Translations under genes and position numbers: made by a program
The notes under the pieces: generated by a model
The model's input: the letters and a program-made list of their open reading frames with translations, nothing else
What the model was told of the DNA's origin: nothing
Database searches by the model: none
NCBI GenBank assembly: GCA_002897115.2
Contig: BCIH01000013.1
Coordinates: 191,852 to 255,851 of the forward strand
Length of the DNA stretch: 64,000 nt
Direction of reading: 5' to 3'
DNA from: Prototheca cutis
Taxonomy: Eukaryota > Chlorophyta > Trebouxiophyceae > Chlorellales > Chlorellaceae
Part shown: piece after piece, positions 2,788 through 23,550 of the stretch
Layout of the letters: each line of letters opens with the position of its first letter
How positions within the stretch are numbered: position 1 is the first letter of the stretch

Positions 2788-3783
2788 TTACCACTGGAAT
2801 CCAGGCGGGAACATGTAGTCCGGGATGCCGTTCTTCACCCAACCGGCACTCTGTGGTGGCCAGATCTGCGATTGGTAGAAGGGGGGGATTGAGATGGGGA
2901 CTGGCCGGAATCCACACAACTGCGGCTGGATCCACACGTATAAATGAGCAGCAGACCCAACATAAAGAAAGTTGCAATCCAGTTCCTCCACGCCACACAT
3001 GAGGCACACCCCCTGGTGCGCACTCCTCCGCAGGCTGGAGGAATGTTGAGGCAGCTCCTTGTGGGCGGCACCCTGGCATTGAATGGAAATTCCCCTCCCG
3101 CCCAACCACCAGCACCAAAGAGAAAAACCCTGCCTTGAGGAACACGCGGCCTTGCACCAAGGCCATGGGCACCGGCCCATATGTCCTGCTATCGGTGCTG
3201 TTGTGGTAGTTGTCTCCCTGCAGCCAGACGTGGCCCTCGGGGACGACCGCGGCACGCCCCCCGCCCAGCGGCACCGCGTCGCCCGCGAGTCCCAGCACGC
3301 GCTTGATGACAACGTGCCGTACGTTTTGGACGCTGCGTGCGACGACGACGTCACCCACCCGCAGCGTGCCCAGCTCCACCGACAGCCGCTCGAGCAGCGC
3401 GACATCGCCGCTGCTGGAGAAGGTGGGACTCATGGACATGCCGATGGGCTGCATGAAATAGGGAATAGGGCAGGGCATTTGGGGGGCCCGGCACATGCGT
3501 TGAGCTTATTGCTGCCAGAGCCTGGGACCTTTACACCGGCCCACAAGTCATGGCATGCCGGCCAAGCCCTCCCCAAATGACAGCATTATTCCACGCACAG
3601 CAGGGACATTACCGCATCAAAATTGCCAATCCAGAAGGACTCACTCACCACAGTGAACTCGGCGATGTAGCTGCGCACGACGTGGATGGTAGCGGCGGCC
3701 TTGAGGAACCAGAGGGCACGGGCTAGGATGGAGTTGGGCCCGGCAGTTGCCCAACCCCAGGCCCCGCCCGCGCTGGCCGCCAT
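2788..3783 (-). CDS. IMP1: Mitochondrial inner membrane protease subunit 1 (signal peptidase I family)
   Basis: Three exons: 3649-3783, 3134-3448 and 2788-2865, 175 residues. IMP removes bipartite presequences from proteins sorted to the intermembrane space. The protein has an N-terminal hydrophobic/amphipathic stretch (ILARALWFLKAAATIHVV), then the catalytic Ser box in GMSMSPTFSS, the catalytic Lys in HVVIKRVLGLAGD, and the conserved VPEGHVWLQGDNYHNSTDSR. The last exon encodes IWPPQSAGWVKNGIPDYM..., the usual tail. Intron 2 has a GC donor (CTCAAG|GCAGGG at 3133) and an AG acceptor at 2866; joining there restores the family sequence VFLKIWPP. Reading through instead gives non-homologous protein. 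The resemblance to IMP1 rather than IMP2 rests on the VPEGHVW segment and length. Confidence 0.9.
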
Positions 3784-9685: not shown

Positions 9686-9956
9686 GCACCCTGGGGCACT
9701 CTGCCCAACACAACTACTGGACGACCCAAGAACTGACTGATGTTGGCAGTGCTGAGCACAGCCGCCCCCTTTCCGACCGGGCTTTTCCTTGGAGCCCTTC
9801 TCTGGCTGCATCCATAATCCCGGGAGCTGGAGGATTTTGAACCACCAGACGACAACCACCAACACCCTCAGACCTCACAATCCTCCCGATGCATAAGGAT
9901 GCATTGATCCACAGCGACAGAGGCGGGTGCACCCTCACATGCTCCATACGTGCATG

Positions 9957-10574
9957 CTACCATGCAGGACCAAAATAATGCAACCAGCTCAGCCAGCAAC
10001 AGCGTCACATCACCCCGGGGTTTACTGGGCATCACTGACGGCCCGAAAATTTCCACACTCTGCATGGCAATAGGAAGGTGGATGACCATCTTAATGATGG
10101 GCCACCTCCGGGGCTGCTTTCCCTTTCCGGGGAGGGAAGGAGCTCCGGGGGTTCCAACCTCCAGTTGGGAAGGCTATTACCCCCCATGATAGATGGATGT
10201 ATGTTCATCAGCACTGCGCCCTTGGGCACTGGAAGCACTCCGGCCGCTCGCCGGTCTTCCGCAGGCTCTGCACGATGTGCCTCATGTTCAGACACGCCAT
10301 CAAGTCTCGGTTCCAGAGACGATGCTTGCTGTTTGGGGTGTAGTAGTCTTTGTCAGTGCAGCGCAGCAGCCCGTGGCACACCACTGTGGGCGTCTGCTCT
10401 TTGCACGACCTGCCCTGCTGCCAAGAAGGAACCCAACCCATCCTCTGAGCGATGCGGCCAGGGAATGCGGGGGCAAACAGGCATCTTGTTTGAAAAACAT
10501 GCCCCTGCTGTGCAGGTGGGAATCTTCTGACGAATCTCGAGAAGGCTTCATCATTTTTGCCCTGCACGGTACAT
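9957..10574 (-). mobile_element. Non-autonomous TIR DNA transposon, copy A, carrying a Fanzor-like gene end
   Basis: The ends are inverted copies of TGCAGGGCAAAAATrATG (left end in element sense near 10570, right end near 9960 with one mismatch). About 178 bp at one end (10397-10574) and 150 bp at the other (9957-10106) match copy B at 22379-22745, which lies in the opposite orientation. The 290 bp between (10107-10396) is unique to copy A and encodes the Fanzor-like C-terminus. I could not find a clean target-site duplication, so exact borders and superfamily are unsettled. Confidence 0.65.
10208..10396 (-). pseudogene. Fanzor/TnpB-family RNA-guided nuclease, C-terminal remnant
   Basis: Minus-strand frame ending at a stop at 10208. 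It reads VVCHGLLRCTD, a short spacer, RLWNRDLMACLNMRHIVQSL and RKTGERPECF, followed by the stop. Fanzor and TnpB proteins end with a zinc-ribbon segment and then the RuvC-III motif WNRD-x2-A-x-N, whose Asp is catalytic; here that Asp is codon 10304-10306 and is intact. The RP-E-x-F tail after the motif also recurs in the eukaryotic and giant-virus members as I remember them. RuvC-I, RuvC-II, the wedge domain and the first CXXC pair are missing: the frame continues upstream only into the TIR element's shared non-coding end. It is therefore a truncated relic. Family assignment is from motif recognition, not a search. Confidence 0.5.
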
Positions 10575-11925
10575 AAACCATTGGGTCCATGCATCAGAAC
10601 ACAGTAGTAGCAGAAACATACGGTCATAGAGTCGAAGAAAACGTGCTCCAACAACATTGGGCACACACAGGGAGGGACAAACTGGCAAGCAGTGCTTGGT
10701 TTCATTTGCATGGACATTCTGGGACCATCAGGTGCCCCAAGAGGTCGACAACAGCACCATGTGCTTGTGCAAGGGCAACGAAATTGGGGAATCACAAGAG
10801 GGAAATTTGAAGTTGGAGCAGCAAAATCTGGCTCTGATCGCCCNTGGACAAGCAAGCTATGTCAGTCAGTTCTGGCATTGGGAGAATTCCTGACAAGAGG
10901 CACATGTGCCTGCCCACCCACTGGGACCGTGGGGGTTTCTTGTCGGGTGATGGCACCGTTCCGAGCCACCAACATGATCAAGGGTTGCACCCCTCAAGGT
11001 TATGAGCACCCAGCACAAATGTCATATCTGGGAAGTCTGCTCTCAGGGGTCCTCACGGCGCGTCTGTCGCAGCGCAGTCCATGCGTTCCCTGCATGGGGC
11101 CACTGCATCGCCGTTGCTCGGGCATTCAACGAGTGGTGTGCTCGAACCGTTCATGCTGCAGGCGCCTGCAGCCGTCGGCTTCAGTGTGAGCATTTGCTCG
11201 GCCGCCGGGGAACCAAGCACCCTGGCAAAAAGGGTCCTCTTGTCAGCTGGGCACAAGAAAAAAGCCCATCGACACAGCACGGCAGGCAACCACGTGCCTC
11301 TCTCGACTGCATGCACAAGATCAATGTCACACTTAAAACGACATGGCGTCCCGACACCAAGATCTATTCGCCCGGCGCAGCAGCGTCGCGGCACAGGTGA
11401 TGAAGCCCGCTGCAAGCCCGACGGCATGGATCCATGCATGTCCAGGCATATGCCCGACTGGTTGGCAGCCAGAAAGAGCTGTGGCCTCCGACGGGCCAAC
11501 CCTGTCCTTGGTGCTGGGCTGGGCCGTTCCAGATCCCAGGGGCCGAGTTCCACGCACCACGTGCACCACAACCCAGGTGGCCCAACAAACCCTCCAGAGG
11601 GGCTGGGGCCACCTGCGGCTCGGCACATGGTCGACCGGGCATCTCACGTCTCGATTGGGGCGTGAGGTGTTATGTGGCATCCACCGCCGCATCGCTCCGG
11701 TTCCCGTGACTGCAGGCATCGTTCGTTGGCTTGGCAAGCACGTCCAGCCCGGAAAGCTTTGCCAGCAGCTGGCCCGGATTCAGGCGAGCGGGTCGAGGTC
11801 CAAAGGCTACGCGAATTGCCCTTCAGCAGTAATACGCGCTGCTGTCATCTCTTGTCCCGCTGCAAAAGGGCGGCAGGGCGGCCGGCATGCCGGGGCGCTG
11901 GCTCGCATTGTCCCAGCTCTCCTCC

Positions 11926-22220: not shown

Positions 22221-23550
22221 TTTCTCCCGCTGCAAGCGCTGCTCACTCCTAAACAGACCAACTTGCTTGTGTATTTATTGCATTTTCATATGTTTATACT
22301 TATGCATGCATTGTGCGAGCGNCGTCAGGCATACGAAAATGACTGAATGTTCGAGCCGCATCTCGTCGGGTCCCCCCTGTACAGTGCAGGGCAAAAATGA
22401 TGAAACATGCCGAAATTCGTCGACTCCCACCTGCACAGCAGGGCATGTTTTTCAAACAAAATGCCTGTTGGACAGCATTCCCTTGCCGCATCGCTCAGAG
22501 AATGGGCTGGTCTCCTTCTCGGCAGCAGAACAGGTCGTGCAAGGAGGTTTTAGAAAGTCCTGGACATTGACCCTGGCACGGCAATTGTCACACCTTGGTG
22601 GCCCATCATTAAGATGGTCATCCACCTTCCTATTGCCATGCAGAGTGTGGAAATTTTCGGGCCGTCAGTGATGCCCAGTAACGCCCGGGGTGATGTGACG
22701 CTGTTGCTGGCTGAGCTGGTTGCATTATTTTTGCCCTGCATGGTATCGTCGCATACCCTTTCATTTTACCCCCTTCTGATCAGCCCACTGTCGTCCGCAG
22801 CGTGACGATGGGACCTCCCAACTTTCAACAACATTCCTGCCCGCAGTACCACCTCCCCCCCCAAAAAGGCTGCTGTGGATTTTTGAACGCATGGTCTCCT
22901 CACGAGGTGCTCTACTGTGCTGTCATGGGCGGAGCTGCGATGCTCCACCCAACGAGGTATTTTTTCAATGGGCCAGCTGGCTCCACCCGCAAGAGAGTAC
23001 TGTGTACATCCCGATTGCCTGCTTCATGATTCCTGCTCTTGTCTCGCTGTTGCCTTGCTGTTTGACCAGTTTCAGATGTGTCATGCCATCTCGGCTCGTA
23101 CTGTGTAGGCACTTCGCCCCGTGACTCTCAGATCAGGGGGACGGTCCAGCGGCCACCAGGGGGGCCGCTACCACTGTGGCGGCTGCAATGTGACCAGCGC
23201 GGCTGCAATGATGCCACTGGGGGTTCAAGTGGATGGGAATCCACAAAGCTCTCCACTCGGTTGGGAAAGCAAGGGACAAGGAGATGCTCAATACCACTTC
23301 CAATGCAACGCTCCACAAGATCAGGCGGCCGGTGTGTCCGCTCAGTAAAGCTTGGCATTGCCCGACGGATTCAAGCGTGTTTTTTCAAGGCTGGCAAATG
23401 TCAGCGATATCTTGCTGGACACCGTGGAAAGGGTTGGGGGGTGGATGCAGTCTGGGTGGTCTTGCGAAGCTGTGCATGGGGTGCCCATCCAATTGCCAGT
23501 ACCAGCCATCAGGCCTCCTCCCTCTCACCACCAACACCGCCCCACACCTG
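22221..23550. other. Intergenic region holding TIR element copy B
   Basis: 1.3 kb between the SPB4 start and the SulP stop. The TIR element fills 22379-22745. The rest (22746-23550) has only short frames without recognisable domains. Confidence 0.45.
22379..22745 (+). mobile_element. Non-autonomous TIR DNA transposon, copy B
   Basis: Bounded by TGCAGGGCAAAAATGATG at the left and the inverted TGCAGGGCAAAAATAATG at the right. Shares about 168 bp (22379-22546) and 149 bp (22597-22745) with the ends of copy A, but only 50 bp separates them, so the Fanzor-like segment is absent. The two copies are inverted relative to each other, 12 kb apart. No coding capacity. Confidence 0.65.

Follow-up and report, generated by a model that had tools for sequence, protein, structure and literature searches.

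A block resembling the RuvC-III motif of a Fanzor nuclease lies between inverted repeats in the window, the whole 64,000-nucleotide stretch of Prototheca cutis DNA analysed here (contig C13; genome of 19.9 Mb in 23 contigs; window GC 0.59-0.67). The locus raises the question of what kind of element carries this block, and whether a Fanzor protein has a part in the upkeep of copies that do not encode one. The element occupies 610 bp at 9960-10569, is bounded by terminal inverted repeats with a duplicated TA outside them, has its Fanzor sense on the minus strand, and is a non-autonomous, deletion-derived MITE of a Fanzor1 transposon family. The explanation that fits best as a whole, with a probability of roughly 0.6, is that such MITEs are moved by a transposase and restored by Fanzor in trans, and that a motif found beside them is the footprint of this restoring step, the transposon-adjacent motif (TAM).

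The minus-strand frame at 10208-10861 contains CHGLLRCTD, RLWNRDLMACLNM and GERPECF, as the preliminary description of this DNA had it, and the catalytic Asp codon that was there said to be intact was confirmed by direct reading. The same description recognised the last 60 or so residues of a Fanzor. About 63 codons are present, and a 114-aa frame aligns to the C-termini of Parasitella parasitica Fanzor1 (PpFz1, PDB 9cf0; E=1.6e-9) and Spizellomyces Fanzor1 (SpuFz1, 8gkh; E=0.0024). Profile searches, which had been proposed as a check, gave no Pfam or NCBIfam match to the short C-terminal fragment alone, and support came instead from these sequence alignments. The missing profile match is what would be seen if the RuvC-III-like block were a chance match in a non-Fanzor frame. 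This was rejected, and its probability is negligible, because the fragment itself matches Fanzor1 and longer copies in the genome have the full C-terminal domain.

One long copy, taken over its C-terminal 297 aa, matches PpFz1 with E=1.5e-47 and SpuFz1 with E=9.1e-26, and both PDB matches at E<=1 for this longer copy are Fanzor1. RuvC-I, RuvC-II, RuvC-III and the zinc ribbon are all found in the longer copies, where, as anticipated, RuvC-I and RuvC-II precede the segment seen in the window. The Fanzor1 signature D-X(125,275)-[TS][TS]-X-X-C4 zinc finger-X(5,50)-RD (PMC3627910; this and the other papers are cited from extracts) occurs in L043 and L045 as FIDPGRGD ... DEFRTSKRCPAC ... CTNEKC ... 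WNRD. Codons for the RuvC-II Glu and the RuvC-III Asp are each present in 9/9 long copies and that for the RuvC-I Asp in the 8/8 that are readable there (the ninth has N), with a stop inside the 297-aa stretch in one of the nine. With the Pfam TNB profile, longer copies reach 21.7 and 23.1 bits, below its cut-off of 26.3. HTH_OrfB (PF12323), a weak test of affinity to Fanzor2/TnpB, has no match in the genome at E<=0.001. By these tests the longer copies stand nearer to Fanzor1 than to Fanzor2/TnpB.

The inverted ends described earlier are real (9963-9980, TGCAGGACCAAAATAATG, 2 mismatches; 10549-10566, TGCAGGGCAAAAATGATG on the minus strand), with the limits then given a few bases off the true ones (Table 1). 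Aligned to the full-length element e7, the window copy matches in three blocks, e7 positions 14-179, 2938-3217 and 3268-3438, and is thus the product of internal deletion, which bears out the earlier suggestion of a Fanzor in a DNA transposon that was subsequently reduced. The deletions amount to ∼2.75 kb, with a 3-bp overlap at the junction, plus ∼50 bp. The catalytic triad and the C4 zinc ribbon are both incomplete: RuvC-III alone is left, the first CxxC of the ribbon is deleted, and its last Cys is replaced (CTDKDY). The second family copy in the window retains e7 positions 14-216 and 3293-3441 and is without the Fanzor C-terminal coding piece.

Table 1. Features of the Fanzor-derived element and of a second family copy in the window (positions are those of the window).
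Feature	Position	Strand	Basis
DNA flanking the 3′ end; prospective guide, should a Fanzor guide RNA be made from this copy	9938..9957	-	
TA target-site duplication, 3′ side	9958..9959	.	aligned copies
3′ terminal inverted repeat, inward, plus-strand reading CCATGCAGGACCAAAATAATG	9960..9980	-	
3′ terminal ∼145 bp, better-conserved non-coding end; putative guide-RNA scaffold	9960..10105	-	conservation in two MITE classes
Fanzor1 C-terminal ∼63 codons and stop TGA (10205-10207)	10205..10399	-	
RuvC-III Asp codon	10304-10306	-	read directly
Junction left by the ∼2.75-kb deletion, with a 3-bp overlap between the alignments on either side	10397..10399	-	
5′ part of the Fanzor element, preceding the coding region	10397..10569	-	alignment to e7
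5′ terminal inverted repeat CCGTGCAGGGCAAAAATGATG	10549..10569	-	
TA target-site duplication, 5′ side	10570..10571	.	aligned copies
TGTA in Fanzor sense, fits [ACT][GC]TA; candidate transposon-adjacent motif	10570..10573	-	
Second family copy, ∼355-bp class	22382..22743	+	TA at 22380-22381 and 22744-22745

A DNA search with the window element, in which the best 40 of 373 candidates were scored, found at least 40 near-full-length places, of which one is the element itself and 39 have 83-91% identity, and at least 2 partial places. A search with the 22382-22743 copy, scoring 40 of 375 candidates, likewise found at least 40 near-full-length places, the copy's own among them. The end pattern TGCAGGGCAAAAATRATG, with up to 2 mismatches allowed, matches 413 times genome-wide and its reversed control 0 times. 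Two 5′ end types occur: the type a pattern has 353 matches, a figure that includes 3′ ends within 3 mismatches, and type b (TAACGGCAG...) has 126, with no match to either control. Paired copies with the second 5′ TIR type, TAACGGCAGAAAATGATG, keep the type a 3′ end, and many elements therefore have unequal ends. Among paired copies there are two size classes, ∼581-619 bp and ∼348-363 bp. Their members are short, TIR-bounded, lack a working gene and form many copies of uniform size, and both the ∼590-bp and the ∼355-bp class are MITEs. Four further elements (L040, L042, L079 and L080) have 3′-type sequence at both ends, and two of these are only 96 and 112 bp long.

The 297-aa query has at least 134 matches in the genome (132 of 303 candidates scored). 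At least 10 span 290 residues or more, including the query and two diverged copies (66-67%), and the remainder, among those listed, are mostly short C-terminal stubs. Two full-length copies of 3.42 kb, on C7 and C20, are free of N gaps and contain isolated N bases, and several other long copies are broken by N runs. The full-length copies encode Fanzor, and a Pfam scan of 7 of their open frames, on both strands, returned only the sub-threshold TNB match (E=8.1e-5) and a weak antisense DUF (E=0.03). Over the shared last 65 residues, the synonymous-site difference is 0.081 in long copies and 0.193 in MITE stubs, indicating that the long copies are younger. Open frames of up to 4597 aa near Fanzor loci, considered as possible transposase-Fanzor fusions, were rejected as products of assembly N runs in the loci fetched. 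The full-length copies L045 and L047 carry a 47-bp segment (element position 3230-3276) in opposite orientation with 100% identity; it lies 3′ of the stop codon, is an 85% palindrome, and falls where the window copy has a deletion.

The carrier was examined in 72 copies drawn from 81 rows, the 9 left out being near-palindromic elements whose two ends are both of 3′ type, one copy duplicated in reverse orientation, and rows with N at the end. TA is in register on the 5′ side of 61/72 copies, on the 3′ side of 59/72 and on both sides of 52/72. The bases beyond TA are unlike on the two sides, so that the duplication is TA, and a GTAC duplication was rejected for this reason. Together with the TIRs, the TA duplication points to a carrier of Tc1/mariner type, as in the SPu-1 and PUl elements (PMC3627910). 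No transposase domain was detected in the 7 frames scanned from the two full-length copies. Genome searches gave 0 matches for DDE_3 (PF13358), with a control that was positive in 3 of 14 genomes, and 0 for DDE_1 (PF03184), for which the control was uninformative; intron-split genes and assembly gaps could conceal a transposase from such a search. Many 5′ ends read TA-CAGTGCAGGGCAAAAA, and this presumably resembles the end of C. elegans Tc1.

The two flanks of the family differ. The motif [ACT][GC]TA was read off a discovery set of ends before it was tested, and held-out ends (43 5′ and 37 3′) were fetched afterwards; ends without TA in register were left out (11/72 and 4/43 on the 5′ side, 13/72 and 4/37 on the 3′ side). 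In Fanzor sense the motif is present in the 5′ flank at 59/61 discovery ends versus 31/59 in the 3′ flank, and at 35/39 versus 21/33 held-out ends (p=0.011), or 94/100 versus 52/92 when pooled. As background, 788/1889 TA sites of the window at large, counted on both strands, have the motif. Among the 100 pooled 5′ flanks, 94 have G or C at -1, 70 have T and none has G at -2, only 5 have T at -3, and 41 have T at -4. The sides differ at -1 to -4 (pooled chi-square, p 5e-5, 6e-5, 1e-4 and 2e-4), the 3′ flank being less constrained, and show no difference at pooled positions -5 and -6. For the held-out ends alone, p from -1 to -6 is 0.27, 0.016, 0.15, 0.09, 0.036 and 0.019, with only -2 below 0.05 among the first four positions. 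By class, the 5′ and 3′ counts are 30/31 vs 19/29 (∼590 bp), 23/24 vs 12/25 (∼355 bp) and 6/6 vs 0/5 (long copies), and the one-sided motif also holds in MITEs without a nuclease gene.

An asymmetric target preference of the transposase could be responsible, in which case these would be plain MITEs, deletion derivatives of a Tc1/mariner-like Fanzor element, moved by that enzyme only, and Fanzor would have no role in how they spread or are retained. The ends, the TA duplication and the size classes need nothing further, and, as expected of a target consensus, the 3′ flank has the same preference in a weaker form (-1 G in 43/92, -2 T in 40/92; motif in 52/92, compared with 0.417 of TA sites in the window, P=0.003). 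A palindromic preference with random orientation would make the two sides equal, yet positions -1 to -4 differ (each p < 0.0002), and the two 5′ TIR types, unlike in sequence, show a similar 5′ bias, in 60/65 ends of type a and 34/35 of type b. By itself, a transposase that contacts its target asymmetrically could produce the flank bias. Transposition without Fanzor is a serious possibility, to which about a third of the weight is given, and the one-sided [ACT][GC]TA is a candidate TAM. The TAM of SpuFz1, CATA, has TA at its end (PMC10432273). That of PpFz1, the closest solved relative, is ATN (PMC11423790), which counts against the TAM interpretation. The SpuFz1 and GtFz1 motifs are given in opposite order in the extracts of PMC11423790 and PMC10432273.

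The two ends of the element also differ in conservation, as measured in 36 copies of the ∼590-bp class and 27 of the ∼355-bp class; the motif pattern used to select copies was not the same for the 5′ as for the 3′ end. Mean pairwise identity of the TIR is 0.933 and 0.955 (∼590 and ∼355 bp) at the 3′ end versus 0.769 and 0.853 at the 5′ end, where the two end types account for part of the difference. Subterminal identity is 0.895 and 0.908 at the 3′ end and 0.859 and 0.876 at the 5′ end. Bootstrap intervals for 3′ minus 5′ identity lie above zero in both classes, and column permutation gave p of 0.035 and 0.045. Conserved non-coding sequence adjoining the 3′ TIR, one mark of a Fanzor guide-RNA (OMEGA) locus, is present in the family. 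The preliminary description had suggested looking for a conserved guide-RNA region next to one end of the element: a conserved region does exist at the 3′ end, and its identity as a guide RNA is putative. A transposase alone would presumably protect both ends alike, and conservation that extends past the TIR and exceeds that of the 5′ end speaks against movement without Fanzor.

In Fanzor1 elements of insect viruses, the TIR and target-site duplication are predicted to lie within the RNA scaffold, with the RNA reaching ∼15 nt past the duplication (PMC10711439). By analogy with such Fanzor1 reRNAs, 9938-9957 would hold the guide of the window copy. Folding of the 3′ end in two single copies was no better than in shuffled sequences (z -1.21 and -0.30). 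One alignment of the 3′ end yielded a weak consensus structure (-8.9); the consensus of 56 aligned 3′ ends folds at -21.0 kcal/mol, a value reached by 2/200 column shuffles, and the antisense consensus is slightly better (-22.3 vs -21.0). Changes on both sides of a pair are seen in only 2 of the 36 pairs, which does not exceed the shuffles, and this want of covariation favours the plain transposase account. A 3′ guide RNA is accordingly suggested by position, conservation and the flank motif, and not by structure.

The one-sided motif and the better-conserved 3′ ∼145 bp together fit a TAM and a guide-RNA region served by Fanzor in trans. Under this preferred reading, a transposase, probably of Tc1/mariner type, would move the MITE by cut-and-paste. 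The retained 3′ ∼145 bp would provide the scaffold of a Fanzor guide RNA, with the 3′ flanking DNA as guide, and Fanzor made by full-length copies would cut the empty site in trans, so that the MITE could be restored. The [ACT][GC]TA 5′ of the element would then be the footprint of the Fanzor cutting step, i.e. the TAM, and the Fanzor coding stub in the MITE a near-neutral passenger.

A stronger form of this reading, that the MITEs are guide-RNA-only selfish elements, is put forward tentatively, being somewhat less probable than its negation. Having lost the nuclease and kept its 3′ RNA gene, each insertion would program Fanzor, supplied in trans by full-length copies, to cut the insertion's own empty site, and would be copied back. 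If true, the family would amount to a naturally occurring swarm of drive elements with one nuclease in common in an alga-like genome, and the one-sided motif in nuclease-less elements would be a genomic fossil of this activity from which the TAM can be read directly. Nuclease-less MITEs with many insertions offer a statistical test of Fanzor action in trans, and a candidate TAM can be read from the genome sequence before biochemistry. Both bear on what Fanzor does for its transposon.

The stub itself might alternatively be kept as a functional C-terminal peptide. The RuvC-III Asp codon is present in 26/26 MITE stubs and a real in-frame stop in only 2/26. Stop-making changes number 4 versus 12.5 expected (2/400 simulations as low), though selection of the copies by tblastn favours open ones, and the pooled pairwise Nei-Gojobori ratio is ∼0.67 (0.665) among stubs and 0.53 in long copies over 297 residues. 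However, N/S in the 26 stubs is 2.375 against a neutral 2.73 +/- 0.28 simulated with a spectrum taken from the 3′ end (33/400 as low), and the ∼355-bp class, which has no stub, still occupies at least 40 places. Selection on the coding stub is near neutral, and a retained peptide is very improbable. A stretch of ∼40 bp over RuvC-III (window 10286-10327 and the other ∼590-bp copies) has an identity of 0.951 vs 0.864 for the whole stub. Third codon positions in this stretch are as conserved as first and second, so that selection on the protein is not the cause, which again argues against a peptide; this conservation is left unexplained by the preferred reading of Fanzor acting in trans.

Both Fanzor1 carried by TA-duplicating elements and Fanzor copies with internal deletions are already known, and what is new here is the one-sided flank motif and its occurrence also in nuclease-less copies. 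Among the titles and abstract openings listed in a literature search, there was no account of Fanzor-derived MITEs. SPu-1 of Spizellomyces punctatus, with 17 full-length copies of ∼2.1 kb and 33-bp TIRs, resembles the present family in its TIRs, putative TA duplications and single Fanzor1 ORF without a transposase (Bao and Jurka 2013, PMC3627910), and in a SpuFz1 TAM that also ends in TA (PMC10432273). It differs in that the full element here is 3.42 kb and that, among the copies listed, deleted classes predominate. PUl-1, PUl-4 and PGv-1 share TA duplications and mariner TIRs, and some have Fanzor1 only, but others carry a mariner transposase (PMC3627910), and none was found in the genome searched here. 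CMe-1A (with TE-N2, from Cyanidioschyzon merolae) is likewise a high-copy algal Fanzor1 family, but is described as lacking TIRs (PMC3627910). CRe-1 to CRe-3 of Chlamydomonas also have truncated and internally deleted copies that retain the 3′ end, but are non-autonomous Helitron2 elements (PMC3627910). The closest solved protein is PpFz1, whose alignment with the 297-aa C-terminus takes in RuvC-I, RuvC-II, RuvC-III and the zinc ribbon; it differs in the TAM given above. In Auxenochlorella UTEX 250-A, possibly a sister lineage or near relative of the host, the most abundant repeat is an uncharacterized Fanzor-encoding element; the likeness, compared by description only, is to a Fanzor-bearing repeat in a streamlined trebouxiophyte genome of 63.9% GC (PMC12636532). 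The present family supplies ends, deletion classes and flanks for the kind of element reported there (PMC12636532).

Further Fanzor-like sequences are present in the genome. PF07282 has at least 97 matches genome-wide (150 of 181 candidates scored), some of which belong to the family of the window element. A second Fanzor-like family (L001-L008) has many copies and a CSAC...CxSCG zinc ribbon, and within 1.5 kb of these loci there is no end repeat of the window element's family except one weak partial match (L002). At L056:1179-8948 (C4:1442900-1452800), three diverged Fanzor copies that are 66-70% identical lie within ∼8 kb, without a clear end repeat of the window element's family; they possibly represent another family or a resident gene. 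One of them has a 680-aa open frame, and TGCCCTGTAATAGCGAA is shared downstream. As a protein query, the whole 680-aa sequence found nothing at E<=0.001, and its RuvC part found two unnamed relatives. A 647-aa protein from an ENA contig (P0001) is a Fanzor that is 62% identical to the diverged L056 copy over the RuvC part.
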